Shown here piece after piece: positions 1 to 39,973 of a DNA stretch of 64,000 nt. The stretch's first letter is position 1; every line of letters begins with the position of its first letter. The DNA is taken from contig JAMXDE010000020.1 in NCBI GenBank assembly GCA_026770025.1, forward strand, positions 682,001-746,000, given 5' to 3'. Below the pieces are notes generated by a model that had not been told where the DNA came from, did no database searches, and saw nothing but the letters and a program-made list of their open reading frames with translations. The translations under genes were made by a program, and so were the position numbers. The DNA is from Craspedostauros australis (taxonomy: Eukaryota > Bacillariophyta > Bacillariophyceae > Mastogloiales > Achnanthaceae).

Positions 1-839
1 TAAACGTCAAGACCGACGACCATCCAGTGCTCCTCACAGAGGCACCCATGAACCCGAGACAGAACCGCGACAAGGTGGCAGAAATCTTCTTCGAAACATT
101 CCGCGCACCGGCCGTTTTCTTCGCCCCTCCAGCTGTCCTCAGTCTCTACGCATCCGGAAGAACGACCGGCGTCGTCCTCGATGTTGGTGAAGGCGTCACC
201 CATGCCGTTCCTGTCTACGAAGGATTCGCGCTGCCGCACTCCGTCACCCGCTCCGATGTGGCAGGACGGGATGTCACCCGCCAAATGCAGCTCCTGTTGC
301 GGCGCTCCGGCCTCACTTTCACAACCACAGCCGAGGCCGATCTCGTCAAGCGAATGAAGGAGGAGACGTGCTACCTGACGCAACCAGGAACGCTGGAGGA
401 GACGGCCGAGAAGGACGCGAAGACACAGTACACCTTGCCGGACGGACAGACCGTCACGTTATCATCGGAACGGTACCAGGCACCAAACATCCTCTTCGAC
501 CCATCCCTGGTCGGTTCCGAAGAAGCTGGTGTTGCGGATATCCTGGTCAACTCAATCATGAAGAGCGACATCGATCTGAGATCCACCCTGTTCTCCCAGG
601 TCGTCCTTGCGGGAGGTTCCACCCTGTTCCCTGGCTTCGGAGACCGCATCCTGCACGAGGTCCGCGCGCGATCGCCATCCCACACTCGCATACGAATCTC
701 CGCACCACCAGAGCGCATCAATTCCACATTCGTTGGTGGGTCCATCCTTGCCAGTCTCGCAACGTTCAAATCCATGTGGGTTTCCCGAGCCGACTTCGAA
801 GAGCATGGCACGGCGATTTTGCATCAAAATGAGATGTAA
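1..839 (+). CDS. ARP1: Actin-related protein 1 (centractin), 3' part
   Basis: The reading frame is open from the window edge (codon phase begins at base 3) to a TAA at 837-839, so the 5' part lies outside. The protein follows Arp1 almost block by block: HPVLLTEAP, FFETF, LSLYASGRTTGVVLD, GVTHAVPVYEGFALPHS, AGRDVT, TLPDG, a GGSTL nucleotide-binding loop, then GGSILASL and FKSMW near the C-terminus. Arp1 forms the short actin-like filament of dynactin, the dynein cofactor, in the cytoplasm. The ending differs from actin's own C-terminus, and the stretch after AGRDVT follows Arp1 rather than actin. No intron is seen in this part. The gene converges with the SR-protein kinase. Confidence 0.9.
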   Translation, partial: NVKTDDHPVLLTEAPMNPRQNRDKVAEIFFETFRAPAVFFAPPAVLSLYASGRTTGVVLDVGEGVTHAVPVYEGFALPHSVTRSDVAGRDVTRQMQLLLRRSGLTFTTTAEADLVKRMKEETCYLTQPGTLEETAEKDAKTQYTLPDGQTVTLSSERYQAPNILFDPSLVGSEEAGVADILVNSIMKSDIDLRSTLFSQVVLAGGSTLFPGFGDRILHEVRARSPSHTRIRISAPPERINSTFVGGSILASLATFKSMWVSRADFEEHGTAILHQNEM

Positions 840-1502
840 AGAGCAGCGTACGAGTAAGAGCAAAAGCACAACAACAAAACAATACCAAGCAACCTCGCAA
901 ACCAAGCAAGGAAGCAAACCAGCCACATATTTTACAGCGCTCCGTCGTGCAAGTATATCATGTTGACTTGAAGCGTCACCAAGATGGAGCCAAAGACGAA
1001 GTATAAGATCTCTGTAGTCCAAGATCAAGACTTAGGTTGATTGTCTTTGCATGGTTTCCACGGTATTTACACCATCATGCTCACCCCGTACTCATACGTG
1101 GAGAAGTGCAACCTTGTTCTCTGGAGGACCAGCCGTGCTTCCATTTGTCGCATGCCAAATCTACGAGCGTTGCCTGAGCTCGACGAAGATCATGAAACAA
1201 ACGAAGGAAGACAGGAGGAACCATCACTCTGCCATCGACTGATTTTGCTGGCGCATTGATGGTCGGTATGTCATGTCGAAGCATCCATGCTGGTACTCAA
1301 GTAGTGCAATCTCTGGCGATGCTGTCGACGACGTGATTAACCATGCGGTTGTCTAATAGTGATGATGTTGTCACAAGCAGCAAACACGGCGAGATGCTGG
1401 TCGCAAGCTATGGTTTGGGTCTTAACTCGATTATTCTATGATCCAAGGAAACAGCTCCAATACGAGTGCGGTGCGGACGCCCCCCATGCGGATGGAGTCG
1501 TA
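840..1502. other. Intergenic, between convergent genes
   Basis: 3' flanks of Arp1 and of the kinase. No convincing coding sequence, RNA gene or repeat was seen. Confidence 0.6.
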
Positions 1503-5831
<4,329 letters not shown>

Positions 5832-7510
5832 TGTGGACCTCCGTGGCCTAAACTCCGTGACAAAAATGATGCTGCTGCCTGCCTGGCGTTGGGTTGGAGT
5901 TGCGTCCCACCTCCTTCTTCTTGCTGTTGCTGCTGTTGCCGTTATCAATGATGGCTTTGCTCTGCTCTGCCTTGTGTTACGTTGCCTTGCGTTACCTTGC
6001 GTTGCGCTGTGTAACGTCAGGGTGTCCTTGCGCGAGCAATGTCGTGAGGGTGGAGTTCTGCTGGTGATGGCCGGAGATGAGGGGAGTGTCTCCAGAGTGC
6101 TCTTGTTGTGAGTCGTCTTTGGGGACTTATCGCGTGTAATGCAGTGCAATGCAATGCAAATGGTGTGGAGATGATGAAGAGCACGGTGCTGTTGTGAGGC
6201 TCCTGTGCGGTTGTGGTGCTGTGTCTCGCGTCCTCGAGCGCGGATAGACTATCTTCCTTGCTTGCCTGGGTTGCTTGCCTGCCTGGGTTGCCTGATGACG
6301 CAGTGGCGGGGCGCTTCACCTTGAGAAATGAACTGGTTCCTGCGGTGGCTGTTGTCTTCGCGCGCCAAGCTTCCTCACGTGCTCCGCTCCAACAATGGCA
6401 ATGCCTCTGTCTTTGCCTCTGTCTTGAGTCCGTTGCGCAACTTCCCACCTCGTCGAGACCTCCGACTGTCCTGCGGTCTTCGGCTGTTTGGGTTGTTCAA
6501 AGTCGGCGCGCGGTTTCCGGCTGCTGTTGCTTCTTCTTGCTGACCTTCTCTCGCTGTCTTGGTCTCTTGAGCTGTTCCTGTTGCTGTTGGTGCCGCTGCT
6601 GATGATGGTGCGGATGAAGCCTGTCTGCCCAGGCTCCGCCATGCGATGTCCGTGCCTTTGCGTGTTTGTCTTGCCTTCGTCTCTCTGTGTTGCGTTTGGC
6701 GCATCAGCCATGGAGTGGCAACTCGCGCCGTTGAAATCATCATCACCACGAAGCCCCAGCCAACCACCAACGCGCAAAAGCGGACATTCCACCTTACTTC
6801 AAGTACTACAGTCCTGGTACAAAGGCTACGTACCGCTGTCGGATGCGCAGGTTTCGTTTGTTCTTTTCCTCGCAGATCCACGGTAAAACCACCTTAACGA
6901 CGCCCAACGGCAATTCGGCGCGCACACACCAGCGAAACTTGGTGCCTCATCTGCTCTCGTTGCTTTCTCGGTCACAACTCGAGCACGCCAGTTTCCTCGA
7001 TTTTCGAATTTGCCGCAATGATCGACGCAACTCGATTATGGGACGTGTCTCAACAGCGTCTTCCAAGACACATGACCTGCTTTTTTCGCCACAGTCAAAA
7101 ACCCCAAAAGACATTTCGGTCATTCCAGCCAGTCGACGTTATTGGCGACATCTACGATACGAGTCTAGAGTGGCGTAGTTTTCGTCGTTCTGTCCAAACA
7201 GATCGGTTGGCCGAAGAGGATGCCAACGACAGTTGGTATGCAGTCTCTGGAGAGACAGACAAGCGCAGCTTTCTTTGCGGATACCCAGTCAGCACAAGAT
7301 GGCACAGCATAGCACAGCACAGGTTGGGAGTCCTGCTCTGTCTGACGTCTGACGTCTGTACTGTAGTAGTCGTATGCGGAGTACTCGTCTCTCTCTCTCT
7401 GGAGAGTATTGTGCTTTGGTTCGTATGGTTTAGTATTCGTAACGAGCTTAGAATGGTCTGACTCCCAGTACTACTGATCGTACTCTGGGCCCTTAGCCCG
7501 ACGTAGATGT
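5832..7510. other. Intergenic, 1.7 kb
   Basis: 5' flank of the kinase and 3' flank of ClpC. Several open frames up to about 170 codons overlap on both strands around 6300-6900, but none resembles a known protein and they shadow each other. A CT-rich run followed by GGAGAG lies near 7381-7405. No gene is supported. Confidence 0.5.
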
Positions 7511-10500
7511 CTATTGGAAGCCTTCTGGTTCCCTCTTGGGAGGATCATCCAAGGATGGGAGATCGCCGAATGCGGCAAGGTAATCCAGATCCTCAGATGA
7601 GGTAATGCCGCCATTGCTGTCCACTGACACGAACATATCGTCGCGTCCTGCCAGCGACTCGCGCGTGACCTTCACGATGGAGGTGTCGCCGTTGGGCTCC
7701 TTCAGGTTCACGATCACCTTGTCTCCCTCGTTCACGAACTCGCTCATGATGGCCTCCGCCATGGTGTCCTCCAGGTACCGTTGCACGGCCCTTCGAATTG
7801 GCCGGGCACCGTACAGGCTAGCCACTGGCAGCGCATCGCGCGTCACGATCTCGGCAATGTTGTCCGACACCGTCACGTCGATGTTCTGGTCGTCGCTCAC
7901 GCGCTTCACGGTCTCCGCGATCAGGTTGTCGGCGATGGCCTTCAGGTTCTCGTACGACAGAGGGGTAAACACCACGATCTCGTCGATGCGATTCAGCAGC
8001 TCCGGCTTCATGGTCTGCTCCAGCTCCTCCTTCACCACGTCGTTCATGGCGGCGATGTTCTCTTCGGAGTCGCTGGCGCCACCGTCAGCGGACTTGGCAG
8101 TCTCCAAGATGCGCTGGCTGCCGACGTTTGATGTCATCACGAAGATGGTGTTCTTGAAGTTCACCGTGCGGCCCTTGCCGTCAGTCAGCGTACCTTCATC
8201 CATCACCTGCAGGAGGATGTTGAGGACGTCCTCATGCGCTTTCTCCTGCATGTGCATGAGTAAGTGAGTGCGTTCGTGCGCACCGCACCATATTTGTATG
8301 AAAGATGGGATGGGCATGCGAGTGAGTGAGTGAGTTAGAATAGGGAATGTACGAGTAGAATCACGGGTTGGGACGTCAGCGTACTCGTACAACGGCTGCG
8401 GCAAGAAGAATCCGTCGGTGGGGGCGTCTCCTTTCCATCAAGGCAGCAAGACGGTTGTATGCAACAGCCATCATGTCTCTGACATCACTTACCACCTCGT
8501 CGAACAGGACAACAGAGTGTGGCTTCCTTCGCACAGCCTCAGTAAGTTGACCTCCTTCGTCCTGCGGGCGCAAAATGAGGTTGGTGCGATACAGTAGATG
8601 AATACAGAAGACGAATGAGGAATGGGGAAGACGCCGAATGGTGAGAAGCTGCTGGTGCATGTAGTACGTAGAGTAAATGCATCAACACAGAAGGTGGTGT
8701 GGAAAGTGTTGCACTGTTCTACTCGTGGCGAGTACCAATACATCGCAATAGAATTGGAATCGCATCCAGCACACGCGATCGACTCGCAGTTCATTCTCTG
8801 GCAAGAACATGACATGGTAGGTCAAACAACACATGGCATGTTGCACAGACAAGCACTTACGTAACCGACGTATCCTGGTGGTGCACCGACCAAACGGCTT
8901 GTGGAAAAGCGATCCATGTATTCACTCATGTCGATACGGATCATGTCCTTCTCCTGACCGTAGTATGTCTCGGCCAGGGCCTTGCAAACCTCGGTCTTAC
9001 CGACACCCGTCGGACCGCAGAACAGGAAGCTTGCCACCGGCCTCTTTCCATCGCGCATGCCGCTACGAGCTCTGCGGACAGACTTGGCGACGGATCGGAC
9101 CGCTTGGGTCTGTCCCTTGATACGCTCTCCAATCTCCTCCTCCAGATTGCGAAGGCGAGCCTTCATGCCCGTATCCAGCTTCCCGATCGGAATCTTGGTC
9201 ATCTGCGAGATGACCTCGTTGATGGCATCCTCCGTCACGAAGAAGGATTCCCCAGTTTCCGACATCTTGATCATGGATCCGGCCTCATCCAGCAGATCAA
9301 TTGCCTTGTCGGGAAGGAATCGATCCGACACGTACCGATCGCTGAGCTTGGCCGCCGCGAGCAGCGCGTTGCTGGTGTACTCCACTCCGTGGTACTCTTC
9401 GTACTTGGGCATGACGGCTGCGAGAATGTCCAGGGTCTCCTCGACGGTGGGCTCCTTGACCTCCATCGGTTGGAATCGGCGCTCCAGCGCACCGTCCTTC
9501 TCAATGTATCGCCTGTATTCTGGCGTCGTCGTGGCACCGAGGATACGGAGCTCGCCTCTGGCCAATGCGGGTTTGAGCAGGTTGGCTGCGTTCATGGCAC
9601 CGTCACCTCCTCCACCTGTTCCGATGAGGTTGTGGATCTCGTCGATGAAGAGGATGACGTTGCTGCTGCTGGCCTCGGCGATGAGATTCTTGATCTTCTT
9701 TTCAAAGTCTCCACGGTTGGCGGTTCCAGCCACCAGGCTGGCCAGCTCCACGTTGATGAGGCGGAAGCCTGCCAACGAAACAGGACACGGTGGCAGCGTG
9801 TACTCCACCTCCTCGACGGCTTCCGTGGCCGTCTCCGTCTCAACCTCCTTGTTGCGTCGGAATGGATTACGAAGCTTGATTTTAGGAACTTCCACGGCGA
9901 CGGGGCTTGGCTGGGCCTTGCGAAGCGGTTCCGCAAGCACCTGCGCGATGGCTTCCGCGACCGCAGTCTTTCCGACTCCTGGATCTCCGATGAGGCAAGG
10001 GTTGTTCTTGCGACGGCGGCCCAGCGTGCGCAGCGCCGAGCGGATCTCCGCATCACGACCGAAGACGGCATCGAGCTTGCCATCGAGAGCGAGCTGCGTC
10101 ATGTCCACGCCGACCTCGTTGAGCGTGTTGGTGTTGCCGCTGCTGGCGCCGATGACCACCTGCTCTCGGATGATGGTGCTGGTGGCACCGCCGTTGAGGG
10201 ACGCGATGAGGTCTTCGCAGAAGGTGTAGACGGAGAACTTGTTGTCGACCTGACGGTTGGCGAGGTTCTCCATGTTGCCGAGCACCTTGATGACGGGCGC
10301 CGACTGGATCTTCTGCCCGTAGTTGTATCCCATCAATGCCAGCAGAACGTGCTCGGAATGCACGTCGTCCGAGGACATACTGTCCGCGATCTCAGCCGCC
10401 TTGGACAGCACCGCCTTGGAGGGAACGGAGAAGGGGAGAGCGTCGCGTTCCTTGTTGCCGCCGATCTTCAAGGTGACGCTCGGGTCCTTCTTGATGGCAC

Positions 10501-10957
10501 GGATGGCGCCGCGCTTCACGCCCTCGTTCACGATGCCTGAATCCTCCAGCAGTGGAGCTGCCCGTTCTGGATGTGCCACAACACCAGCAAACATGAGCTC
10601 TGGACTGAGATAGTCGGCTCCGATATCATTTCCAATGTCATGCCCTACCTGCACGGCTCTGACGCATTCGTCGGACAGCCGATCGATGACCATGGTCATC
10701 TGGGACGAGGACGACGCCGTGACTGACGTACGGCCAACGCGACCCGTTCGCAATGCACTTCTGCCATGCTCGATCATCCCATTGCGGACGAAGTTGGAAG
10801 ATCCAACGGATCCGCGACCGCTCAAGGTCGGAACGGAAAATGCGGACACGTGGCCTGCTCCATTGTGTTGCGTGGATGCAACAGCGAGCAGCAGCACCAA
10901 GGCTGCTGTTGCCGACAATGGCGAGCCTGCCGGCATCCCTGTCGATCTCATCGTCAT
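7511..10957 (-). CDS. clpC: Plastid-targeted ClpC/Hsp100 AAA+ chaperone, three exons
   Basis: Exons 10957-8861, 8561-8493 (only 23 codons) and 8245-7511 give about 966 residues. The short middle exon supplies the junction GYVGY/DEGGQL...FDEV/EKAH, which fits the family exactly. The leader has a hydrophobic signal segment and then SAFSVP, the bipartite plastid signal of red-lineage secondary algae. After a Clp N-domain, NBD1 has Walker [14 protein letters not shown] and Walker [15 protein letters not shown]2 has [10 protein letters not shown] and the VVLFDE Walker B. The linker between them is short and lacks the long ClpB middle domain, so ClpC is the better call. About 45-50 extra residues sit in NBD1 between Walker A and the AGT-RGDFE loop. 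The role would be unfolding clients for the stromal Clp protease. The start is the first ATG in frame. Confidence 0.88.
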
Positions 10958-11276
10958 CCGGTTGGAAGCTCGGTGATGCCGATGCTTGCTCAACTCTTTG
11001 GAGAATACTCGCTTCTCGCAAGTACTCCACGAGCTGTCTTGGATTGCTGCGCAGCGCCACTACAACGAGTAGTACGGACGACGATGGTGCCTTCGGTGTG
11101 GGTTGGATCAGGTGGATGCCGATGGAATCAGTCTGCTCCAGTCCAGTTCAAGTGCAGTGATGCTCTCTTTGCTCTCTTGGTATGCTCTGCCTCTGCCTCT
11201 CTTTCTCCTTCTTGTCGCCCTCTCCTTTGCTTTTGCCTCGATGCAACAGCAGAGGTGAAGAAGAATAAGAATAAGA
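10958..11276. other. ClpC 5' flank up to the transposon edge
   Basis: About 320 bp between the ClpC start codon and the left inverted repeat of the transposon. It must hold the ClpC 5' leader and promoter, unless the promoter lies beyond or inside the element. No clear TATA element was seen. Confidence 0.5.
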
Positions 11277-11435
11277 TATGAGCCCCCCGAGTGAGTCGAC
11301 CTGCACTCCGTTATTGGCATCTATAAAATTTGTCTTCGATATCCAAACCAAGCACATATTCATAATCCTCGTAGTCTCCATATAAATAATTAACCGATGG
11401 ATTTTTTAGTTAGATCCTATTTTAAGTTTTATGGA
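11277..11435 (+). repeat. Left terminal inverted repeat
   Basis: Pairs with 17184-17342 over 159 bp without length change. Positions 11277-11318 match perfectly, 11319-11383 match only partly, and 11384-11435 match with one mismatch. Confidence 0.92.
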
Positions 11436-11799
11436 TAGTCAAAAATATGATAAAGTCGTATGGGTCGACCCCGTGAAACTACTTGTTGTTTTTCAGAAGG
11501 TTCCATGCTGTTCCGATGCATTTATCATGAGGCAGTCAGTCATGGACCGGACGCAGAAAATGTCGTTCGTTTGGTACGCGTTAAATACACGTTAGCCTGC
11601 GCCACATGATCTCACATTTTGATCGTCACAAAACACATCACACAAAACACATCACACAAAACACATCACACATCCAACATCATCGCCATCCGCTCACAAT
11701 TCCGCAAATCATCGCCACTCTTTCGCTCCATTTCACAACTTTCCTCGCCAATGCCATGCGCACTCGCTGTTGTGTTCCATGCTTGTGCTCGCCCTATTA

Positions 11800-11848
11800 G
11801 TGTAGTAGTAGTAGTAGTAGTAGTAGTAGTTGTTGTTGTTGTTGTTGT
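11800..11848 (+). repeat. Microsatellite (TAG)n then (TTG)n
   Basis: A run of about ten TAG units changes into about seven TTG units just upstream of the transposase start, inside the transposon. It is probably in its 5' leader. Confidence 0.9.
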
Positions 11849-11913
11849 CAACAAATGGTCGACCTTGCATTGTATGCTCTCCGTCGTCACTTCGTCTCAT
11901 ACCAGTGCAGTTC

Positions 11914-14900
11914 ATGACATCAAACCAAGTATCAACTATACCCTACACCAACAACTACAACATGCCTCTCTCCACCACCGCCAAGGCCAAGGATGCCAAC
12001 CCCTCCCCCTGTAAGAAACCGCGCTCTGCTTACCCTGTGTCTGCTCCTCCTGTTGACTCCAAGGGAAACTTGCTCCCTACCGCGGAGCAACTGTTGCCCG
12101 ACAAGCCATCCCCTGCAGTCCAGAAGCCAACCACCATCACGCAAGTGATTGATGTGGAGCCGATGCATGCAGCGGATGGCAGCCTCGTCCCGAACAGTAC
12201 GGATGCGCACGCTCGCGTGCTGCATGTGTTCGTTCACATCCTCGATGACAACGGAGGCGTCTTCGACGACTCCAACGTCAGGGTGCGATCCGAGGGACGA
12301 GGTGTCGGCGATGGAGCAGTGGTGAGCGTTATCGTGAACGCGCCACCCCCTGCTGTGCCTGACGTTGCACCACCTGTCGAGCCTGCCCCACCAGCGAGGC
12401 TCCCTCGTCGCTGCAATGCTGTTGTAGCTGGTGGCTATGCAGACACCTCCAATGACAGCGACACCACCTACGACGACAACGACAGGGGGGAAGGAACGCG
12501 TGCCAGCAGGAACAGGAGAGGAGGTCAGTTCGGGTATGATCCGCAAGAGGGGGAGAACTGGAGGCGCCCTGCTGTGATTCGCGTGATGGAGTTGCTCACG
12601 GATCACTTCGACATGAACGTGTTTACTTCCATGCCTCCCAAGGGATTCGTGCTTGGCTGGAATTGCGACAGGCACACATGGTGGAATGTAACACGTGTGT
12701 GGGTCAACGTGGCTTCTGCGCTCTGGGGTGTCTTGCTCCCCCAGGAGGAGTTGCCAACACGCCAGATGCAGCAGGTCGTGGAGTTTGTCCGCGCGCGCGC
12801 GGATCTACCGCCGCCTGCACTCGGTCCAAATCTGTACACCCTATGTGTTGGGGGGGAACAGACACTGGCTATCGCAGCTAGAGCTGTCCTCGCTGCATCT
12901 ACGTCATTCACTAACAGCTCCGCAATCCTCTCTCGTCACCTGGAGACCATGTCAGAGGAACAGCGTATTCGTGTCGAGCCTGCACGCACTGCAATCACCC
13001 GGAGTCAATTAACAACATTGCGACGCGCCTATGACATGTTCAGCCGTGGCGAACTCATCCCGCCAAAGGTTCTCCAGTATCGTGTGCGTGCTTGCAATCT
13101 GTCTGGTGTGGCATCATTTCTCATGACCACCGCTACGTACAAGGCAGGCCTGAGTCACACGGTACAGTTCGGAGGCATCAAATTTGAAAATGTCCCCGTC
13201 TTCGATCGTGGAAGCACGTCAATCGAACAACTATTCGACATGTACGCGTCAACGACTAACAACCCAGTTGGAATGCCTGCATTCACCCTCATGACTAACC
13301 TGCTCACACGCAAAAGTAAGATCAAGACGGGCCTTTCTTCCTTCGAGAGTTACTTCTGGATGGCGACGGAGAAACTCAAACAGGCAATTTCGCGCCTAGT
13401 AGACCTCCTGAAGGCTAAGTATGAAACAGACGGAGAGGAACAAAACGATGCCAATGACGAGAGCGACAACGACAACGACAACGACGAGCCCAATGACGTC
13501 ATCTCTCCACATGTGCGCACGGCCGATTCCCTCTTGAATGCACTCGAACTGCTTGTTGTGTTCCTCAAATGGGAGTTCACCGCCTCCCACATGCAGCTTC
13601 AGTGCGACGATCCAATGCATTCGGCCGCGTTCGCTCTCACCACCAAAAAGGAGAAGAAGAAGAAGGCAACAACCACCTCAACCAACCAACGCAAAGCACG
13701 CACCAACAAGCACAAACGCAAGAAGACCACTCTCAAAAGCGACACGCCAACCATCACAAATGACATTCCAGTGGTCACAACAAACGAACAACCGCGTAAA
13801 GTATGCAACCGTTGTGGATCAGCAATGCGATTTGTGAATGATCGTTTTGTCCCATTCGTCGAAATGCTTAAGGACAACGAACTCGCAGAACACAAGGACG
13901 AATTGCAATCAATGCTTGCGGCGGCGCCGGGATTCGCTGATGAAATCACTAATTACATGGCTCACAAAGTGCGTGCCAAAGTGCAATTCCGACAAATCGC
14001 TTTTTATCAATCCGAACTCAATGATAAGCCTGAAAGAGCCTATGTGGTACTTGACCATAAGCAAAAAATTCTACCAACAGGCCAAAGCGAAGCCCAACAA
14101 GAATATTGGGGGAAAAAGGGAATGTCACTGCTTGGGGCGATGGTCATCACGTGTCGCAACGACATTTTTACTTATCGGTTCATTGACATTGTGGTCGGTG
14201 GAAGACCGACACAAGACACTCTTCAAGTTGGTGCACTGCTTGACATTGTGCAAAAAAAGGTCAAAGACATTCACCCATCCGTGACTGAGATCATCCTACA
14301 GAGCGATAACGCGTGTTGTTTCGCCAGTCACGAGCACATCGCGCTCATCACATCGGTACTCAACAAGAACCTTGCAACACGAAAGGCCGCCAAAATCATC
14401 GCATGGATTTACACGGAGGCCCAAACCGGTAAGAGCATGCTGGACACCCACTTCGCGTACATCACCCGTGTACTGCGAAAATACGTGCAAAGTGGCAAGG
14501 ACATCAAGACCCCGTTCCAACTCTTCCTCGCGCTCCAAGCAGGTAACATCGCAGGTACGACAACGGTACTGGTCAACGCAGAGACCCTCGAAGGCAACAT
14601 CACGACGCTTCCTGGCGCACCAAAACGACGATTCCGCGCGAACGGGCAACAGGTGCGTCAAACTCACGAGGTGAAGTATGATGATGACCAGGCGCGATTG
14701 GTGGCTGCATCTGGCATCACGGAAGACGTCGTTGTGAAGAGCGCTGAATGGGACGGCTGGATCATCAACCAGCTGGGCGTTGCCGATGTTCACACACACA
14801 AGTCCGACAAGCTGCCGATAACGTCCGAATCGTTCAGGAAGACGGACAAGACGCGAAAACTCGGGCGCACAGCGGCAGAGAGCAAGGGGCTGGTGTTCGG

Positions 14901-15507
14901 CAAAGCGATCCAAGACGTACAAGGATGCGTGCCGACCGACCGCACCGCGGAGTTGAAGGACAAGACCGCAGAAACCGAACACCCACCACTCGCAGTGCCA
15001 GGCTGGGCGAGCAAAACCGTACGGATCAACGCGAAACTACCAGACTACATCGCGGACAAATTGAAGGACATCAGTGAAGCGTCCGCGAAGGACTCGAAAA
15101 ACAGACCGTCCGAACATGAAGCACACGAACAATTGATGGCCAACGAAAGAACGAAAACTGACTGGTACGTACAACTGCACGCTAATCCCATGCGGGTGAA
15201 AGCATCGCTGTCTGCAGCGTACAACGCCAAACAACGCAAAGAAAAGAAGCAGGCTGCCCTCATCAAGGCAGAAACCAACACCAACACCAACCCAACAAAC
15301 AAAGCAACAGCATCTGCAATCATGGCGACCCACAATGCGCCAGCTGTAACAGAGGAGGAACGAAGAGAAGAAGAGTTGCAGAGAGAAGAAGAGGAGCTGA
15401 ATCATCAGATGTGGTGTGATGCTCACACAATGAAGGCCAATGCAGAAAGTGAGGCTGTGTTGGATGATGAGACGGAAAATTGTGATGGGCATGAACTGCC
15501 GCGATAA
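11914..15507 (+). CDS. DDE-like transposase of the transposon
   Basis: About 1197 residues in one exon; a second ATG at 11962 has an equally good context. The N-terminal half is weakly featured, with Asp/Asn-rich and Lys-rich stretches and a CNRCG zinc-knuckle-like motif near residue 630. The C-terminal half has a likely catalytic core: an Asp in VVLDHKQKILP (about residue 714), an Asp in QSDNACCF (about 798), and TEAQTGKSMLD (Glu about 835, Asp about 844), followed by SGKDIKTP. From memory this order (LP..ESQ..W..K.G, SDNAGCY, EPQ.GK...D, GN.I.TP) matches a large, poorly named group of animal and protist proteins thought to be transposases. That relation is recall, not a search. It lies between matching terminal repeats, which supports the transposase call independently. 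A coiled, Glu/Arg-rich tail ends the protein. Confidence 0.75.
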   Translation: MTSNQVSTIPYTNNYNMPLSTTAKAKDANPSPCKKPRSAYPVSAPPVDSKGNLLPTAEQLLPDKPSPAVQKPTTITQVIDVEPMHAADGSLVPNSTDAHARVLHVFVHILDDNGGVFDDSNVRVRSEGRGVGDGAVVSVIVNAPPPAVPDVAPPVEPAPPARLPRRCNAVVAGGYADTSNDSDTTYDDNDRGEGTRASRNRRGGQFGYDPQEGENWRRPAVIRVMELLTDHFDMNVFTSMPPKGFVLGWNCDRHTWWNVTRVWVNVASALWGVLLPQEELPTRQMQQVVEFVRARADLPPPALGPNLYTLCVGGEQTLAIAARAVLAASTSFTNSSAILSRHLETMSEEQRIRVEPARTAITRSQLTTLRRAYDMFSRGELIPPKVLQYRVRACNLSGVASFLMTTATYKAGLSHTVQFGGIKFENVPVFDRGSTSIEQLFDMYASTTNNPVGMPAFTLMTNLLTRKSKIKTGLSSFESYFWMATEKLKQAISRLVDLLKAKYETDGEEQNDANDESDNDNDNDEPNDVISPHVRTADSLLNALELLVVFLKWEFTASHMQLQCDDPMHSAAFALTTKKEKKKKATTTSTNQRKARTNKHKRKKTTLKSDTPTITNDIPVVTTNEQPRKVCNRCGSAMRFVNDRFVPFVEMLKDNELAEHKDELQSMLAAAPGFADEITNYMAHKVRAKVQFRQIAFYQSELNDKPERAYVVLDHKQKILPTGQSEAQQEYWGKKGMSLLGAMVITCRNDIFTYRFIDIVVGGRPTQDTLQVGALLDIVQKKVKDIHPSVTEIILQSDNACCFASHEHIALITSVLNKNLATRKAAKIIAWIYTEAQTGKSMLDTHFAYITRVLRKYVQSGKDIKTPFQLFLALQAGNIAGTTTVLVNAETLEGNITTLPGAPKRRFRANGQQVRQTHEVKYDDDQARLVAASGITEDVVVKSAEWDGWIINQLGVADVHTHKSDKLPITSESFRKTDKTRKLGRTAAESKGLVFGKAIQDVQGCVPTDRTAELKDKTAETEHPPLAVPGWASKTVRINAKLPDYIADKLKDISEASAKDSKNRPSEHEAHEQLMANERTKTDWYVQLHANPMRVKASLSAAYNAKQRKEKKQAALIKAETNTNTNPTNKATASAIMATHNAPAVTEEERREEELQREEEELNHQMWCDAHTMKANAESEAVLDDETENCDGHELPR

Positions 15508-17183
15508 CACTAGTTGTGGAGTTTTGTGGGTGGCAGACCATGCTACTAAAACGAGTCTAGAGGCCATCCAAAAAGCACATCCAATATCTGCTTGTCATGC
15601 CATATCTCAACAACACATCGCTTAAAATTAAAACTAAACATTGCGCTCAGACGCCTGGCTATCTGTTGATCAGAATATCGAAGTTAAATGAGTATTGAAA
15701 ATATTTTGGAAGTCATGTTGGTTTCCTGTGTGTTGTGTGGTGGATTCGGAAAAAAAAAATGGTCGATGGCACAATGTTGCCCTCCAATGAGCACACATGA
15801 TCATCATCATCATCCTTGCATTTCAGCAAACTGATCAGATCATTCGCTCTGCATACCCCCCAGCTATCCGCTCCATGAAGGTTGGCCTCAGACATCGGCT
15901 CTGCATGCAGCAATGCAGCCACACACTGAAACAGAGCGATTTCGAAAAATCATTTTCAATCCGGATGCGGTATGGATACGGATCCATACCTCATCCATAC
16001 GATCCTTGCAGCCCCTCCTTGTGCCCCTCGTGCATTACCACGCTCCATGGCGACAGGCAGATGCATCCAGAATGGGCTGGGAGTGCATGGCTGACGCGGT
16101 ACACCTCCATATGATGATGTGGTTGGGCATTTTTTGCTCCCACCAACAACGACCATTCTGCAGATATGGTCGGCTGCAGCCTCTTGTACACCGTCTCTGT
16201 GGCGCACGCTTCACGACGTGCATCTTCAAATGATGCCGCACGCATCTTGTATGGGTACCTTGGCGATTGAGGGGCGTCTTCCCATCGCCCCTCACCGCCA
16301 AAGCCACGCGACTGGTGCCAGGCGAGCCCCAACCAAAACTCCCAAAAACCACCTTTCTCTCCGCGCGGAGACCTTCCCGGTGCTCTGCGAGCCTCGAACT
16401 TCGAGGGGGCCTTCTTCTTGCCCTTCCTGAGGCGTCTTGCCCATCTGTAGGCGCTGATATGACCTGTGTGTGGCGTACACAGGCCAAAACCAACGAGCCG
16501 ATTTGGAGCCAAATTGTGGCCGTATTTCTGGGGCCTACGACGGCCCCAAATCAACCCCTCTTCCCGCCTCCGTTCGTCCACCCACCAAACGCTGCGTGGA
16601 GATGACGGCGATGTGCTTGGATCTTGAATTGGCCGGCTGGTTGGTGCGGCGCCAAGCATACCGTTCGACGGCCATTGTGGTATTTTTTTGGTGTGGCTCC
16701 ATTTTCATCTTGGTGTGTCGAGTTTGCCGCTCTCGACCAGCCTCACATGTTGGGGGATGTGGAGATTTACCTCCAGTTGTTTCGACTGTCCAAAAAGACC
16801 ACGACACAAAACACTCGAGGAGTACCAACCCCACTCAACCACTTCGCCACGAAGAAGCAAACCTGACGATGTTTCGCATCGTGATATCATTGGTGTTTCA
16901 TGACGAAGCATCTAGTTGCGTGACGTCGATGACGGATTGGATAAGCACATGATGGAATGAATGTAAAAGCGGATTCACCGCTTCCCCCAACATTCTACAA
17001 CTAGTGCTATCGTGGATGGACTGTTGGGTGGTCCCATCCGAACACCTGAAAAAGAGACTAAACAATTCAAAATCAGAACAATGTCGCTGAAACAAAGAAC
17101 AGCAAAGGGTTAAATTGGATCGATGTAGTCGGTTGTCAAAGGCTGAAACCCGAAAGAGATCGAAAATTGCGCATATCCATCGG
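15508..17183. other. Transposon 3' part, no clear gene, hairpin-rich
   Basis: Open frames up to about 220 codons occur (for example on the minus strand at 15991-16659), but they overlap frames on the other strand and look like chance in a GC-rich stretch. Six short perfect inverted repeats lie between 15969 and 16548 (see findings). Confidence 0.55.
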
Positions 17184-17342
17184 TCCATAAAACTTAAAAT
17201 AGGATCTAACTCAAAAATCCATCGGTTAATTATTTGTATTAGACCTACAAGGATTACAAATATGTGGTTGGTTAGTATGTAGGAGAGAAAATTTCTGGAG
17301 GCCAATAACGGAGTGCAGGTCGACTCACTCGGGGGGCTCATA
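17184..17342 (-). repeat. Right terminal inverted repeat
   Basis: Reverse complement of the left repeat; see the left copy for the block structure. Confidence 0.92.
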
Positions 17343-17346
17343 TCTT

Positions 17347-17372
17347 TCTGTTGTTGTTGTTGTTGTTGTTGT
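17347..17372 (+). repeat. Microsatellite (TTG)n beside the transposon
   Basis: About eight TTG units lie directly outside the right end of the transposon. Confidence 0.85.
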
Positions 17373-26327: not shown

Positions 26328-29300
26328 ATGGTCAGTGACAGGACCATTATCAACAACCAACAAGTCCACGAGCTATCGCCTGTCCTTCAGTGCCGTCCTC
26401 CAACCCGCGCATCAACGCTGTTGCATACTATACATACTGCTCGTGCTCCCAGAGCGGAGGATCAAGCATCAAGCATCACTGGACGGCCAGACTCCTTCTG
26501 CTCTCCAAATCCCTACCATACCCGAGCTAACCAACCGGGTTACATCACCATCGAACTGGAATCATCCGCGGACGACTCGGGAGACGAGACACCGCAGACA
26601 ACGGCAGAAATGACTTCGTCGGGATCAGCAACGCCGCATGGCGACGATCACAGCGTCACGAGTGAACGAGACAATGACGCCCTCAGCGACAGTCACCAAG
26701 ACCAACATCATGAGCACGATCAACGCCATTTGAATGAGCACGATCAACACCACGAGCACGAACATGAGCACGACGATGACTGGAGCAGGAAGGTGGAGAC
26801 GGACGAGACCACCGCGCACTCTGGCATTGACTTCCCAACTCGGGCGGAGACGGTCACCAGCACGCCAATGGGAGCCGCATCCATGACAGCGATTGCTGGA
26901 GATCACGACGTGGGCGACGCCCTCATGGGCCAGCCGGCTATTGCATCGCTGGGATTGGCTCCCAAACGCGACGAGCCCACGCTCAAGGAGATCCTGGTGG
27001 AGCGGGAACGGCAGAAACGGTTGGAATCGGAACGGGCGCGGTTGAAGAGACAGTTTGCGTTGGCCAGCAGTGGCAGGGGAGCTGCTGACGATGACGCCAG
27101 CCTGGGCCTCCACGATGCAACGCTGATCAGAGAGCACGGCAGCGTGCAGGGGACGGTGGGCGATGAGAGCACCATCGCCCATGCCGAGTTGGATGACAAC
27201 GACGAACGCAAGCTCACCTACCCAATGGAACGATTCTTGCAGGAGCAGGAGTCGCAGGTTGCCGGTGCTCCGCAAACACCGCCCTCCGACGCGCCATCGG
27301 TGACACAGTCGATCTCACGAGCGGACCAAGCACTCGCAATGTCAGCAACACCCGAGAGCGAAGCGGCGCAGGATCTGGTCTGTCGCGATGCAGTCTCGAC
27401 GGCAACGCCGGAAGCATCTTCAATCCACCGCTCTCAAGAGGATGCATCTCTTGATGCACGCCCGGTGACCAGCGACGATGATGACAATGCTGCTAATGCT
27501 AACGCTCGCACAGACAATGGCGTCCTCATGGAACGATTCCTCACCCAACCCGTCGAGCTGGGATCGTTGGAGGACCGACCCGCTGATGTGGCCTCGCAGC
27601 GCACCGTGTCGTTTGACATGGGACAAGAAACCCCCGACAGGAGCCGAGCTGTGGCTTCTGGCAGGACAACGCCGGCCGACGAACCCCGAGACGAACTCCT
27701 GCACGCGTCAACGGATGTCATGACTTCAATGTCCTCGCTGCCTCCGATTGGTCAGATCATCCCCAGTGTAGACCTGCCATCAGGGACAGCGCCAGCGACA
27801 ACGGAAGGCGCACTGTCAGAAACAGCTGCAGCTGCCGCCGGTGCAGGAAGAGGCGATGCAGGAGGAGCAGGTCTCAACGCTGGAGCGTCACTTCAACAGC
27901 GACAGCGCCACGAAACGCCGCCTTTGACACCAGACCATCTCGTGCCGGAGATAATCACAAACCGCCACGATGGCAGCCCGACCCAAGACAGCCCATCTCT
28001 CGGAGTCTCATCCATTGCATCAGATCAACCACGTCTGCTCAGATTGACCGAGGCGGAGATCCAGGAAATGGCAGCGATCGAAGAGGTCAGCACCGGAAAC
28101 GCCCCTCCGTCCGAGAGAGGCGATATTTCGGAGTCATCGTTTGTGGGGGAACTCATGGGCGACTTTGGACCAAACGTGGACCCTGCCGGCACGCTTAGCC
28201 AGGGAACTACTGCCACCGCCGTCGAGTCCATCTCGGTGCGAAGCGGCAACCCAAGTGCCATGCATTCAATCGAACACTCCCATGATCACGATCATGATCA
28301 CCAAAGCCTCGATGGGATGGGCGGTGCACCATCGATCTCCGACCATTCCAACATACTCGCGTCCAGCGTCACAGCGAACCCGCCCAGTGTCATCGAACCG
28401 GACAACCAAGGTCCTGCGTTCGCTCCAGATGATATCAACCCTTCGACGAGCGATTCTCTGGCTGACAACATCAGCGACGGCAACGTCTCCAACACACCCC
28501 CAGGACGCGCTTCAGTGCCAGATTCAGGATCGCCGGAGCTCCAAGCGCAGCTCGGGGCCCAACCATCGTCGGACGAGCCAATCCATGCAACTGCTCCAAG
28601 TTCGGAAAGCAATGCTGTCATCCGCCAACTAGCATCGGTCGACGAAATCGAGCCTGACATCGCCGAAGTGGTGAACAGGCGAATCCGACCGGGCATGGTG
28701 TCGCTGCTTCCCGGCCAACGGCGATCGGCCAGAGACCTCAACGCTGACGTGCTGGAGTCCCCGGTGCGCCGCGTAGCATCGGTCCCCGTCAACATGGACA
28801 TCAACGTCGATGGGTTTGATTACGACAAGTTCGCGCCGCTCTCTCCCAACTCCAAGTTCTCAGACTCCTTGCGAGATCTGCCACCAGATGTATGGAGCCC
28901 GGCCGGAAAGATGGCCATCTCTCCATTGCAAATGGCCCGCAAGCCCATCGTAGTGCCTGAAACCGCGCAAGCAATGCCCATGTCGATGTCGATGCCAAGA
29001 CCGTTGCCAACACCAGATGAAATCGAGATTCGTGAGTCGCCGGTGTACGGATCAACTGAAGACATTGACAGAATGCTGCGAGACAGCAAGCCACCAGCTG
29101 TGAAACGATCCTCAGAAGCACTGGAACATGGTCAACCAATCAGTGAAGAAACGCCGCTTTTGTCGGCTTCAGGTATACCCAGAGAGATCGTGGCCAACAG
29201 CTGGGATTCGAAGCAGAAAGATGAAGACAAGCAGGCGCAGCAGCAAGGCCCATCGCCGTCGAATCTCCCCACATCAGCATCACCCTCCGAGACAGATTCT

Positions 29301-29921
29301 CCCATTCAACGAACGTGTTTCTCCGCCACAAAATTCACAGTAGCAACGGTGGCCGTGGAGTTGATAGTGGTATGGATCCTGACCAGTTGGTCGTCAAGCC
29401 TTTGCACCACCTTGGGACTTCGGCGGTTGTTCACTCTGATGATTCTGCTCCCACTACAACTGGCGCAAACGAGCAGCGTTGGATTGCAGCAAATGCACGC
29501 GACAGACTCCCAGCTCAGGCGAGCTCCTGGTTCCCTGATGTCGTACGAAGACAAGCAAGAATGGGCCCGGCAGAAACTCATAGATGCCTGCCGTACTGGT
29601 GCAGCAGTGAGCATCTTGCTGGCAGCCATCGTGCTATCCATGAGTGATTTTGACGTTCTATTCGCATTATCCGTCGCCACCGGCGGAGTGCTGAGCACCG
29701 TTGCTTCTGGTTTCGTCGGTGTCGTGGTCGCCTTCCACCTAACAAAGCTGGACGACAATGACATGGAGATTGCTCGGGCGGGCATGATGGCAGTTCACAA
29801 TGTCGTCTGCGTGGCGGTGATGATTCTATCAGTCATCGTCTTCTTCAACGTATTCGATGATGCCCAAGATCTTGGTGCAGCTTCCATGGAGATCGAGTGC
29901 CAGAATCTTCTGGGCAACTAG
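26328..29921 (+). CDS. Large disordered protein with C-terminal membrane domain, unknown
   Basis: One exon of about 1197 residues if started at 26328; an ATG at 26610 (better -3 base) would give about 1103. I do not recognise the family. Roughly the first 950 residues are low-complexity Asp/Ser/Pro/Glu-rich sequence with a His-rich patch (HEHDQ type) and a short charged coiled segment (KEILVERERQKRLESER). The last 200 residues hold about four hydrophobic segments: VATVAVELIVVWILT, LFTLMILLPLQLA, AAVSILLAAIVLSM with FALSVATGG, and VVCVAVMILSVIVFF. These suggest an integral membrane domain with a long cytosolic arm. A phrase, LAQTSSVGLQQM, is faintly like the NxxTQ region of MgtE-type transporters, but this is too weak to use. 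Confidence 0.7.
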   Translation: MVSDRTIINNQQVHELSPVLQCRPPTRASTLLHTIHTARAPRAEDQASSITGRPDSFCSPNPYHTRANQPGYITIELESSADDSGDETPQTTAEMTSSGSATPHGDDHSVTSERDNDALSDSHQDQHHEHDQRHLNEHDQHHEHEHEHDDDWSRKVETDETTAHSGIDFPTRAETVTSTPMGAASMTAIAGDHDVGDALMGQPAIASLGLAPKRDEPTLKEILVERERQKRLESERARLKRQFALASSGRGAADDDASLGLHDATLIREHGSVQGTVGDESTIAHAELDDNDERKLTYPMERFLQEQESQVAGAPQTPPSDAPSVTQSISRADQALAMSATPESEAAQDLVCRDAVSTATPEASSIHRSQEDASLDARPVTSDDDDNAANANARTDNGVLMERFLTQPVELGSLEDRPADVASQRTVSFDMGQETPDRSRAVASGRTTPADEPRDELLHASTDVMTSMSSLPPIGQIIPSVDLPSGTAPATTEGALSETAAAAAGAGRGDAGGAGLNAGASLQQRQRHETPPLTPDHLVPEIITNRHDGSPTQDSPSLGVSSIASDQPRLLRLTEAEIQEMAAIEEVSTGNAPPSERGDISESSFVGELMGDFGPNVDPAGTLSQGTTATAVESISVRSGNPSAMHSIEHSHDHDHDHQSLDGMGGAPSISDHSNILASSVTANPPSVIEPDNQGPAFAPDDINPSTSDSLADNISDGNVSNTPPGRASVPDSGSPELQAQLGAQPSSDEPIHATAPSSESNAVIRQLASVDEIEPDIAEVVNRRIRPGMVSLLPGQRRSARDLNADVLESPVRRVASVPVNMDINVDGFDYDKFAPLSPNSKFSDSLRDLPPDVWSPAGKMAISPLQMARKPIVVPETAQAMPMSMSMPRPLPTPDEIEIRESPVYGSTEDIDRMLRDSKPPAVKRSSEALEHGQPISEETPLLSASGIPREIVANSWDSKQKDEDKQAQQQGPSPSNLPTSASPSETDSPIQRTCFSATKFTVATVAVELIVVWILTSWSSSLCTTLGLRRLFTLMILLPLQLAQTSSVGLQQMHATDSQLRRAPGSLMSYEDKQEWARQKLIDACRTGAAVSILLAAIVLSMSDFDVLFALSVATGGVLSTVASGFVGVVVAFHLTKLDDNDMEIARAGMMAVHNVVCVAVMILSVIVFFNVFDDAQDLGAASMEIECQNLLGN

Positions 29922-36060: not shown

Positions 36061-39000
36061 CACTTCAGTGTTGCCCATGCGGCGATGGAGGATCTGATGA
36101 CATCTTGGGTCACATCAGATCGATGTAATTCGTCTGCGTTGCCTTGCTCTGCCTGCGACAGGATGGTCGGGTCCATTCTAGATCTGTTTTTGGCAAGTCG
36201 CTCATTGTTGGTTGCGCAATGCTGGCCTTCCTGCTCGCCCACGGTTCTCTGGGGGGATCGGGAGGTTGTTTGAGTCAGCGCGTTCATAATAAAATCAATA
36301 GAAGACTCTTCATCCTCTCGTGTCGCAAGGTTGGTGTTAGAGGCATCGATTCCGCCTTCTCCGATTTGTGATTGTAATTGTGACGATGAACGTGACGACG
36401 TCTGCGACGCCTCTATCTGTTTGCCTTCGCGTGGTTCGAACATTTCAGAAATCTCCACCTCCAAGTGTCCATCGCAAGCAGTGTGCCCAGCAGCTCCCAT
36501 GGGACGAGCATTTCTGCTGATATCATCATGGGTGCTGCTGCCTTTGGCGGCCGTTACAGCTGCTGCATTCAGCACCGTCTGCGCTGATTCCGTGGGGAAC
36601 TTGTTGTTTGCATCGAAGATAAGCCGAGAACTGAGAGAATAACTTTGAGCGATGGTATTCACTGGGGCGCTGTCGTCGTGGACAGCATCTTCGGCATGTT
36701 CGACATCTCCACGGTCCCCATCAATGGGCACGGCCAACGCCCGGATTCCAACCGCGAGACCTTCAAAATCTGCTCGTTTTGGCCACAGTTGAGGCGCGTC
36801 AACCAATGCGTGGGCCATCAAGTCACCTTGATTCGTTGAAGTCAGCACGCACAGTGCAGAATTGATGGGTGATGAGACACCCATGGCTCTGCTCTGTTGT
36901 GGCGACAGAATTTCTTCAATCGGAACTTCAATGGCAGACAAGCCGGAAATGAATGACGTGCTATCAAACAGCTTGGGGATGGGGTACACTGCGGTCGTTG
37001 CAACGCTGGATGATTGTTCGAGGTGGCGTAAGTTTGGCGTTGAGATTACTTCGACGGGTTCTGTTTGCAGCAGCGGTCTGCTTCTTGGCGACTGGTACAG
37101 ATGCAGACCGAACGTTGATCGCGACTTGTTCACTGCGAAGATGGCCGAACTGAGATACGAGCTTGATCTGGTGGGGGAGTTGGGGTGGATGGGAGAAAAT
37201 ATCGTGCCACCACCACGCAACCCGTTGGTTTGGAATGATGTGAAGTGATCGTCCGTCGAATGGCCGAGCAACCATGCCGTGACGGGCTTGAACGGCATGC
37301 GGCCATCAAATTCCCATACCTTGCCGCCGTCGATGGAGCTGATCCAGAATCGGCTGTCGGTCCTCCAGTCCGTGTGAATTCCACTGATCGAGAGCATTCC
37401 CTCGGTCATCATCTCGTTGGCGCTTGGACTCCATTGGAATGTCGCCTTGTTGCTGCGCAGATCGATGTGGTACAATCCAGTCCCGTTGCTACTCGCAGAT
37501 CTTCGATGGACCGGGTCTGCCGACAGAGTCGGTGCGACGAATGATCTCCCAGCGGCCCAAAGACACATGGGATGCGCTTGTGTGAAGTCCACCAACGTTA
37601 TTTCTTTCAGATGCTGCATCGTGTGCTTCTTATTGTGCATCGGGCATGCAGCATCGACTTCATGGATGACATTCCGTACCGTCTTTTGCGTATGACTCAC
37701 AATCACCAGTTTGGGATCGGTGAAGCTGTTGCCATACTTGGGATGAGCAGCGACACACACGGGATGATACGATCCGAAGAGGCTCGTCATGGAGCGAAGG
37801 TCAATGCGTTGTGTTTCTTTCATGCTGATGTGGCTGCCGCAGTTTCTGCAACTGCAAACGCCGACATTGATCCCCATCTCATCATTTGCGCCCTGCGTCA
37901 CATTGCCATCGTCGTCCATGCTCTCGTCATCAACGCATTGAATTTTCAGCAGACTGACATGGGTACTTGTGCGAACGGCTACCGTGAGTGATCGATTTTC
38001 GACATCCCACGTGCCGCACTGCTTGACTTCAAGAATCGTATCCCCGACATCGACAGAGGTAATAGAAGTTGAAGCTTCGTGCCTCCGTTCATTGGAATTT
38101 GCCGTCTCCTGATTGCAGTTGCGATACTCGGGACGAGCGAAAGGCTGATGGCGGAAAGTGAACGCCGAGAGTCGCAGTCGCTCTTGGAAGTGCCCACATG
38201 CGTGCAGAATGTATCTGCACTTGTCCTTGTGTTGTATTCGGCTGCCATCTGAAGTACGAGTATGACATTGGCACGAGATGCACAGGACACAGTTTCCGTA
38301 TTGCAACGGATCCACATCCGTATCGGGCTGGCTTCGCTTCCAGCCTTTGATGCCTTCGGTCCATTCGATTTCGTCCCTTTCCCCGTCCATGCAAGTATTG
38401 ATGTTATCCAACCCGAACGGGGCTAGATACGCTGGATCTGACGTCATCTGCCGCTGGTGACATATGGGCGTTGCATTCGAAGCCAATCCTGTGCCGTGGC
38501 TTGCTTTCAATTCATTTGACTTCGCATATGGAGCATCATAACTGTCCATGTTCTTGATCATGCGTTCAACGTCGGCGGCACCCCAATCGGTCCTCGTTAG
38601 GATAGCAAGGCGGCCGGCTTGTGTGAAGTGGTCCGCATTCGAGTGTTCATAAAGCGTCCGCGTGGGAACTTCTGGGGACGATGACGATGACGAAGATGAT
38701 CCTGAGGCTATGGTGTGGGCAGAGGTCGACGAGCTTGGTCTCGCAGGTGGCGTTGATCCTGACACGAGCGAAGATGATTCTGATGACGATCGTGCGAGGG
38801 ATGATTGCGCTCGTGCCTTGCGCTCCGGCTGTATTTCCTCCGGCGTAGCATCGCCATTATCACTACGGCGCGATGTGCTGCCTTCGTCTACGGGAGATCC
38901 ATCCTTCACGGTTTGGCCAGCAGGGACGCAGATCGTTTCTGGTGCTCGCTTTCTATTACGGCTCTCAGCATCTTCTCCCGCATCTATGGGCGAACCAGTA

Positions 39001-39365
39001 TTGCCGTCCGCGGTAGCGTCGGCAGGGCCATCCCGCAGCCGACCCTTCTGCCAATGACTCCAGTCCCCCTCCCGCAACACCAGCCGATCTTTGACGAGCC
39101 CTTCATCCAACGTGTAGTTCCACTGCGCCTTCAATCGTGTGATCTCGCTGTGCATGTGATGGATGGGCATGCCAGCAGTGAAGTTCTCCCTGGGCACCCG
39201 CCATGATCTGGCCATCTTTCGTCGCGATTCCTCCCTGTGTGCACCATCATTTCGAAACAGCACGACCGGTGCGCCCAGTTGCTGGAACGACCTGTGCTCC
39301 AGCTTCTCCGCCTCGGAGTCTCCTCCTGTTCCCGATCCGAAGCTTCTCCCTCCGTATCCTTGCAT
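36060..39365 (-). CDS. Large uncharacterised protein, possible beta-propeller
   Basis: One exon of about 1101 residues from the ATG at 39365 (A at -3). An upstream in-frame ATG at 39521 has a T at -3 and adds a Cys-rich stretch that looks like leader. I do not recognise the family. The N-terminal third is charged and Ser-rich, with a run of seven Ser. The middle third has Cys/His pairs (CVLCISCQCH, CSCRNCGSH) and several short strand-like repeats such as TVAVRTSTHVSLLKIQ, CVAAHPKYGNSF, LYHIDLRS and WRTDSRFWISSIDGGKVWEFDG. These would fit WD-like propeller blades. The C-terminal third is disordered. A transcription- or rRNA-related scaffold (TAF1C/RRN6-like) came to mind but is not supported. 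Confidence 0.65.
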   Translation of the reverse strand: MQGYGGRSFGSGTGGDSEAEKLEHRSFQQLGAPVVLFRNDGAHREESRRKMARSWRVPRENFTAGMPIHHMHSEITRLKAQWNYTLDEGLVKDRLVLREGDWSHWQKGRLRDGPADATADGNTGSPIDAGEDAESRNRKRAPETICVPAGQTVKDGSPVDEGSTSRRSDNGDATPEEIQPERKARAQSSLARSSSESSSLVSGSTPPARPSSSTSAHTIASGSSSSSSSSPEVPTRTLYEHSNADHFTQAGRLAILTRTDWGAADVERMIKNMDSYDAPYAKSNELKASHGTGLASNATPICHQRQMTSDPAYLAPFGLDNINTCMDGERDEIEWTEGIKGWKRSQPDTDVDPLQYGNCVLCISCQCHTRTSDGSRIQHKDKCRYILHACGHFQERLRLSAFTFRHQPFARPEYRNCNQETANSNERRHEASTSITSVDVGDTILEVKQCGTWDVENRSLTVAVRTSTHVSLLKIQCVDDESMDDDGNVTQGANDEMGINVGVCSCRNCGSHISMKETQRIDLRSMTSLFGSYHPVCVAAHPKYGNSFTDPKLVIVSHTQKTVRNVIHEVDAACPMHNKKHTMQHLKEITLVDFTQAHPMCLWAAGRSFVAPTLSADPVHRRSASSNGTGLYHIDLRSNKATFQWSPSANEMMTEGMLSISGIHTDWRTDSRFWISSIDGGKVWEFDGRMPFKPVTAWLLGHSTDDHFTSFQTNGLRGGGTIFSPIHPNSPTRSSSYLSSAIFAVNKSRSTFGLHLYQSPRSRPLLQTEPVEVISTPNLRHLEQSSSVATTAVYPIPKLFDSTSFISGLSAIEVPIEEILSPQQSRAMGVSSPINSALCVLTSTNQGDLMAHALVDAPQLWPKRADFEGLAVGIRALAVPIDGDRGDVEHAEDAVHDDSAPVNTIAQSYSLSSRLIFDANNKFPTESAQTVLNAAAVTAAKGSSTHDDISRNARPMGAAGHTACDGHLEVEISEMFEPREGKQIEASQTSSRSSSQLQSQIGEGGIDASNTNLATREDEESSIDFIMNALTQTTSRSPQRTVGEQEGQHCATNNERLAKNRSRMDPTILSQAEQGNADELHRSDVTQDVIRSSIAAWATLK

Positions 39366-39973
39366 GCTTTGGGAACATGCACGGCGCGTCGCAGGTCCCG
39401 CGGACGGATCGCAACCAACCCAATCCACCAGACCTCCGCAGCCTCGATTTGTTCTTTGTGCCTTGAGTTCTTGTGTGTGATGATGGCGACAGGGCACACA
39501 GACATCAAACTCTGACAACATGCAAAAAGAGGTGAAATTGTTTGGTGGCAGATTTTGGCGGGACTCGGCCACATGATTGACTGATTCTTAGTATTGGCAA
39601 CCTGTGAACTAGACGCTCCATGGTACATGCGCTCTACTCTCCGCAGAGGAGATTGATGTGCATCGCTGCTCATGCAATGACTGCAACGTTTCCAACAATC
39701 TACACATAGTACGAGTGCATACGTTCCTCAATTCTACTCTACGACTTATTCTACTCCGCGCGCCCATATGACTTTGCGACTTTGTCATGTCTGTCTTCAT
39801 GATGAATGTGGACGACATGGAACGAGACTCCTCTGGAGGGAGCCATGCTTTGTCGCGGGCTGTGGGTGACGACACCCGAAATCACAACTTGGCTGTGAAT
39901 GCTACAACCTAATGCTGGTAAATGCGAGTGCGGGACTGCTTGTCTCGTGCATCAGCTTGGCGCCTTGATGGGT
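39366..39973. other. Intergenic
   Basis: The 600-bp 5' flank of the unknown gene and 3' flank of the ankyrin gene. No gene is supported. Confidence 0.5.

Follow-up and report, generated by a model that had tools for sequence, protein, structure and literature searches.

Twenty eukaryotic superfamilies of DNA transposons are described as encoding DDD/E transposases, and a C/DxxH signature as common to five superfamilies (PMC9587614, in excerpt). Among these groups, Sola elements are characterised by a DDD transposase, a 4-bp target site duplication (TSD), a length of mostly 2–9 kb, terminal inverted repeats (TIRs) of 11–1124 bp and a wide host range (PMC10741241); in the excerpts available, Ectocarpus, a brown alga, is listed as carrying Sola-1 and Sola-2 (PMC12477816), Sola is reported in the diatom Cyclotella cryptica (PMC7466962), and bivalve Sola1 elements average 5445 bp (PMC10294476). 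Here we describe a transposon in a 64,000-nucleotide stretch of the diatom Craspedostauros australis (the window; contig JAMXDE010000020.1, C18:682001–746000 in the 74.8-Mb assembly of 90 contigs). The type of element is ordinary, and its enzyme matches none of the protein-family libraries that we searched. Leaving the superfamily aside, it is very probably an autonomous, recently mobile DDE/D transposon with TIRs and one gene; it most likely represents a new family, Sola-like in anatomy as far as a comparison with the published description of Sola can tell.

Ends and target site

Comparison of 17 full-length copies (the window copy and 16 fetched ones, selected for paired ends ~6 kb apart, and labelled L here) placed the element at window positions 11280–17339, a length of 6060 bp starting with GAGCCC and ending with GGGCTC. 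A preliminary description had reported an intact-looking DNA transposon of 6.07 kb with matching 159-bp ends. The TIRs, exact TSDs, open frame and multiple copies bear out its intact appearance, and the repeats are real (inverted-repeat arms were found at 11258–11435 and 17184–17361), but the true ends lie 3 bp further in on each side, as indicated by the 17-copy comparison and then confirmed on three empty sites. The resulting TIRs of 156 bp agree at 135 of 156 positions (86.5%).

The four bases outside both ends were identical to each other, and conformed to NTAN, in all 17 full-length copies (ATAT in the window copy). This 4-bp length was first read by eye in the 17 copies and afterwards checked on empty sites. 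Copy L011 has three paralogous empty sites, with junction-spanning matches of 98, 96 and 94%; each carries a single CTAG, whereas L011 itself, 99.2% identical to the window copy, is flanked by two, which makes the TSD 4 bp long with TA as part of the target. Further copies were found, and so were the empty sites by which the preliminary description had proposed to settle the TSD.

Across the genome the end-motif pattern occurs 115 times (57 + 58; reversed control 0), and TAN directly precedes the end motif in every one of the 115 occurrences. Among the 100 ends listed, 34 paired 6-kb copies carry twelve different NTAN TSD sequences, as inferred from the bases adjoining both ends; the two-sided match was read directly in the 17 copies and inferred in the other paired ones. 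The TSD is a 4-bp NTAN with a strict preference for TA.

Two copies were seen nested in others. L014 (C9:1067391–1073453) lies inside the TIR of another copy and is flanked by two ATAT tetramers at a point where the window TIR has one; the second case, judged by end positions only, is C9:1599224–1605329 within C9:1593306–1605482, with a terminus 153 bp from the outer end. Element ends may be preferred targets, although these cases are few.

Copies and recent mobility

The nearest copy, L009 on contig C11, differs from the window copy at 2 of 6060 bases and yet occupies another site (CTAT as against ATAT), indicating recent transposition. Identity to the window copy was 99.87% for L010, 99.22% for L011, 96.2% for L012, about 92% for L022 and L023, and 85.5–86.9% for the remaining ten, while the transposase was identical to that of the window in L009 and L010 (100%) and 99.9% identical in L011. 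At the protein level, all 39 scored matches in the genome (the best 39 of 543 first-look candidates) were 83–100% identical and nearly full-length, with an aligned stretch free of stops in 30 of them. The suggestion that the element could define a transposon family is borne out in that the 17 copies and 115 ends establish a multicopy family. Recent mobility is evident from the near-identical copies, and the family is probably active at present. The family displays the features of a Class II TIR transposon: TIRs, a fixed-length TSD, dispersed copies, empty sites (for one of six copies tried) and a self-encoded protein under selection.

Differences among close copies are grouped in patches, which suggests some gene conversion. 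The 3′ part and the coding part give different trees: in that of the 3′ part, the window copy has L012 as a closer relative than L011, and L022 and L023 are separated. This conflict suggests exchange between copies. Patchiness of this kind would suit copies that are old, or that were spread by segmental duplication rather than by transposition, a reading that we consider exceedingly improbable: the flanks of the 17 copies differ, and the exactness of their TSDs, together with the empty sites of one copy, already refutes it for the copies examined.

The transposase

Open from 11830, the protein frame has an ATG at 11962 that is kept in 11 of the 11 other open copies compared and yields 1181 amino acids (aa) with no stop or shift; an in-frame upstream ATG at 11914 is missing in 6 of these 11. 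The uninterrupted protein of ~1200 residues described earlier was thus essentially correct, and the core motifs noted at the time (VLDHKQKILP, QSDNACCF, TEAQTGKSMLD and SGKDIKTP) are all present. The ratio of non-synonymous to synonymous substitution rates (dN/dS) was 0.155–0.298 over the whole gene (8 of 36 possible pairs computed) and 0.11–0.15 over residues 610–900 (three pairs); the transposase is under purifying selection. The alignments comprised 9 of the 12 open transposases (A1, near-identical L009–L011 omitted), 8 transposases (A2), and 10 rows (A3, with L016, L017, L021, L022 and near-identical sequences omitted). Loci L001–L008 and L036–L040 were also retrieved and form no part of the comparisons given here.

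We consider the transposase to be probably DDE/D-like, with D698, D782 and D828 as its putative catalytic triad (Table 1). The last spacing would be 45 residues to D828 or 36 to the alternative E819; since D828 is the more likely third residue, DDD is favoured over DDE. The DDE-type enzyme proposed at first is supported in its apparent DDE/D-like layout; its third acidic residue would more likely be Asp than Glu. A 245-residue AlphaFold2 model reached a predicted local distance difference test score (pLDDT) of 38 and a predicted template modelling score (pTM) of 0.35, and another AlphaFold2 model a pLDDT of 33. In the former, the order of elements (strand, short helix, strand, strand, helix, strand, helices) is, with low confidence, close to that of an RNase-H core apart from its fifth strand, and the three Asp residues would be located as in such a core. 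Residues C548, H553, C615 and C618 may have a role in zinc binding, judging from the sequence.

A second gene was considered and rejected. The 222-aa minus-strand frame at 15994–16659 is open in three of six copies checked (L012, L023 and L018) and almost open in two others, with dN/dS of 2.3, 0.94 and 0.82 against these three copies, no lower than for other frames in the same region. The frame is without coding constraint, and we therefore recognise no second gene.

Several observations weigh against a recently mobile, autonomous DDE/D transposon. Constraint relaxes outside the core, where segment dN/dS is 0.15–0.54, the transposase frame is broken by a stop or shift in 5 of the 16 fetched copies, and D782 is replaced by Asn in L014. 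The fold models are poor at pLDDT 33 and 38, strand 5 of the RNase-H core being unpredicted and an extra short helix following strand 1. Empty sites, sought by searching joined flanks against the genome (40 of 84 candidates scored), were found for one of the 6 copies tried among the 17. Finally, the transposase has no credible profile match in Pfam, NCBIfam, PHROGs or PADLOC, and no relative in PDB.

Relation to described superfamilies

Limited searches of viral and prokaryotic collections returned three pattern stretches in IMG/VR, searched with the protein, and 45 stretches in GTDB genome contigs, none of them a relative; a degenerate motif pattern run against IMG/VR, and the plasmid and phage collections with one match each (E = 2 and 6), confirmed no relative either. 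Such scans respond only where peptide words are nearly exact or tblastn similarity is clear, so that distant relatives may still exist there. Six motif strings had no occurrence in the literature text searched, nor was a description of the family found in a literature search that lay outside Repbase and the founding Sola paper; we do not claim that the family is unpublished. The core may resemble a broad set of poorly named animal and protist proteins, as the preliminary description proposed and as we too suppose.

By anatomy, the nearest named superfamily appears to be Sola, and the element would work like a Sola-type transposon. We regard formal membership in Sola, most likely in Sola1, as an evenly balanced proposition. 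Like Sola1, Sola2 and Sola3 as described in the excerpts cited above, the element has a 4-bp TSD, a probable DDD triad, a 6-kb size and a TIR length within the published range, and a stramenopile host. This match is drawn from printed features and not from the transposase sequence, and the published Sola2 targets differ: slime-mould Sola2 TSDs are given as AWWT and other AT-rich tetramers, narrower than the NTAN accepted here (PMC3627910, in excerpt). No target consensus for Sola1 was met in the literature searched, the founding Sola paper being outside it.

The strictness of NTAN targeting at all 115 ends, the absence of C/DxxH between D782 and D828, and the failure of Pfam, NCBIfam, PHROGs, PADLOC and PDB to yield a credible match might instead point to an as yet undescribed transposase superfamily, to which the poorly named animal proteins may also belong. 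We hold this to be possible but on balance doubtful: the missing library match is weak evidence, because we know of no Sola model in Pfam, NCBIfam, PHROGs or PADLOC. A more specific proposal is a little less probable still: that the element founds a so far undescribed superfamily of eukaryotic DDD transposons, in which the NTAN target is absolute and the core is common to the poorly named animal and protist proteins.

The TA present before 115 of 115 ends and central in the target also recalls IS630/Tc1/mariner and Sailor (DD82E) elements, and an outlying member of these groups was considered. Sailor is present in stramenopiles, reaches 6979 bp and mostly duplicates the four bases TATA; its transposases, however, measure 323–676 aa compared with 1181 aa here, and its second D-to-E spacing is mostly 82 residues (range 78–111) compared with 36 (E819) or 45 (D828) (PMC8533490, in excerpt). 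Moreover, the outer N bases differ from copy to copy, and each of the 17 copies carries its own in exact duplicate, so that the TSD is 4 bp and not TA, and no matching transposase domain was found in Pfam. We consider such an origin improbable.

Kolobok and piggyBac likewise have a 4-bp TSD containing TA, but theirs is TTAA, which is the reading in 3 of the 34 paired 6-kb copies with their twelve TSD sequences; no Pfam transposase match was obtained, and the C/DxxH motif ascribed to the Kolobok group, in the part of the source available, is absent here between D782 and D828. KDZ/Zisupton elements duplicate 8 bp, as against 4 bp in our copies, and the transposase has no KDZ Pfam domain. A large single transposase is shared with that group, which is known in brown algae (PMC12477816, in excerpt).

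Table 1. Positions of the element and of its proposed functional parts in the window.
Feature	Position	Strand	Remarks
Left TSD, ATAT	11276..11279		Exact 4-bp match to 17340-17343; NTAN likewise in 17/17 copies
Left TIR, 156 bp, begins GAGCCCCCCGAGTGAGTCGACCTGCA	11280..11435	+	
Transposase gene, 1181 aa + stop, MPLSTT start	11962..15507	+	dN/dS 0.16-0.30
Possible zinc-binding segment (C548, H553, C615, C618)	13603..13815	+	17/17 copies
Proposed first catalytic Asp, D698 (VLDHK)	14053..14055	+	17/17 copies; end of predicted strand 1, low-confidence model
Proposed second catalytic Asp, D782 (QSDN)	14305..14307	+	16/17 copies; just past fourth predicted strand, low-confidence model
Conserved Glu, E819 (TEAQTGK), alternative third acidic residue	14416..14418	+	17/17 copies
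Proposed third catalytic Asp, D828 (SMLDTHFA)	14443..14445	+	17/17 copies; start of predicted helix, low-confidence model
3′ non-coding part	15508..17183		
Right TIR, 156 bp, ends GGGCTC	17184..17339	-	
Right TSD, ATAT	17340..17343		

Variant copies and surroundings

Of the 44 adjacent end pairs among the 100 ends listed, 10 lie 7.7–28 kb apart. Such large members were considered as possible carriers of cargo; the one of the ten inspected (on C12, 14.6 kb) holds a nested long terminal repeat (LTR) retrotransposon with 714-bp LTRs that are 99.86% identical. At L041 (C12:528437–538300), bases 288–8800 form an LTR retrotransposon with LTRs of that length and identity and an 1831-codon frame, a young retroelement that interrupts the 3′ non-coding part of an element copy.

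Other loci depart from the simple two-ended structure. In L019 (C21:510224–516688) the right end is duplicated: a second GGGCTC lies ~167 bp inside the outer one, and ATATCCATCGG comes after it, as it does in the native inner sequence. The matching TSD ATAG borders the outer ends. At L025 (C4:3215874 and 3216102), two ends, one right and one left, point towards each other over ~230 bp, each bordered by TTAT, with inner sequences that are near-identical by eye. On the right flank of L012, an abundant repeat begins no more than a few bases from the CTAG target; it was also met at L029–L035, seven loci that were opened and whose left flanks differ by eye. What adjoins L012 is thus probably the terminus of a different repeat family.

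Within the window, the region around the element is rich in genes, among them actin, kinase, methyltransferase and ankyrin-repeat frames. A ClpC/ClpB-like ATPase frame (8825–10957, minus strand; Pfam AAA, AAA_2 and AAA_lid_9) has the element ~0.3 kb upstream of its apparent start, and the insertion may affect its expression. Two further window frames, at 26328–29918 (plus strand, 1197 aa) and 36063–39521 (minus strand, 1153 aa), had no Pfam match at E 0.001.

Proposed mechanism and significance

The ends, the TSD with its TA preference, the empty sites of one copy, the near-identical copies at different sites and the purifying selection were all observed directly, and the anatomy of the element suggests cut-and-paste chemistry carried out by the proposed catalytic residues. 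The transposase, expressed from the single gene, would bind the 156-bp ends and cut at the GAGCCC termini, excising the element, which would then be joined to an NTAN site cut with a 4-bp stagger centred on TA; host repair would produce the 4-bp NTAN duplication. DDE/D transposons generally gain copies through donor-site repair or transposition during replication, and the copy number of this family could have risen in either way.

The family is fully bounded and recently mobile, and its exact ends, strict NTAN rule, empty sites and several intact frames make transposition directly testable and offer a possible integration tool for algae. Should the superfamily prove undescribed, the element would supply a structure and a target rule for a group of unannotated eukaryotic proteins; and if poorly named animal and protist proteins do share its core, the ends, target rule and candidate working element described here would be the first to be defined for that group.

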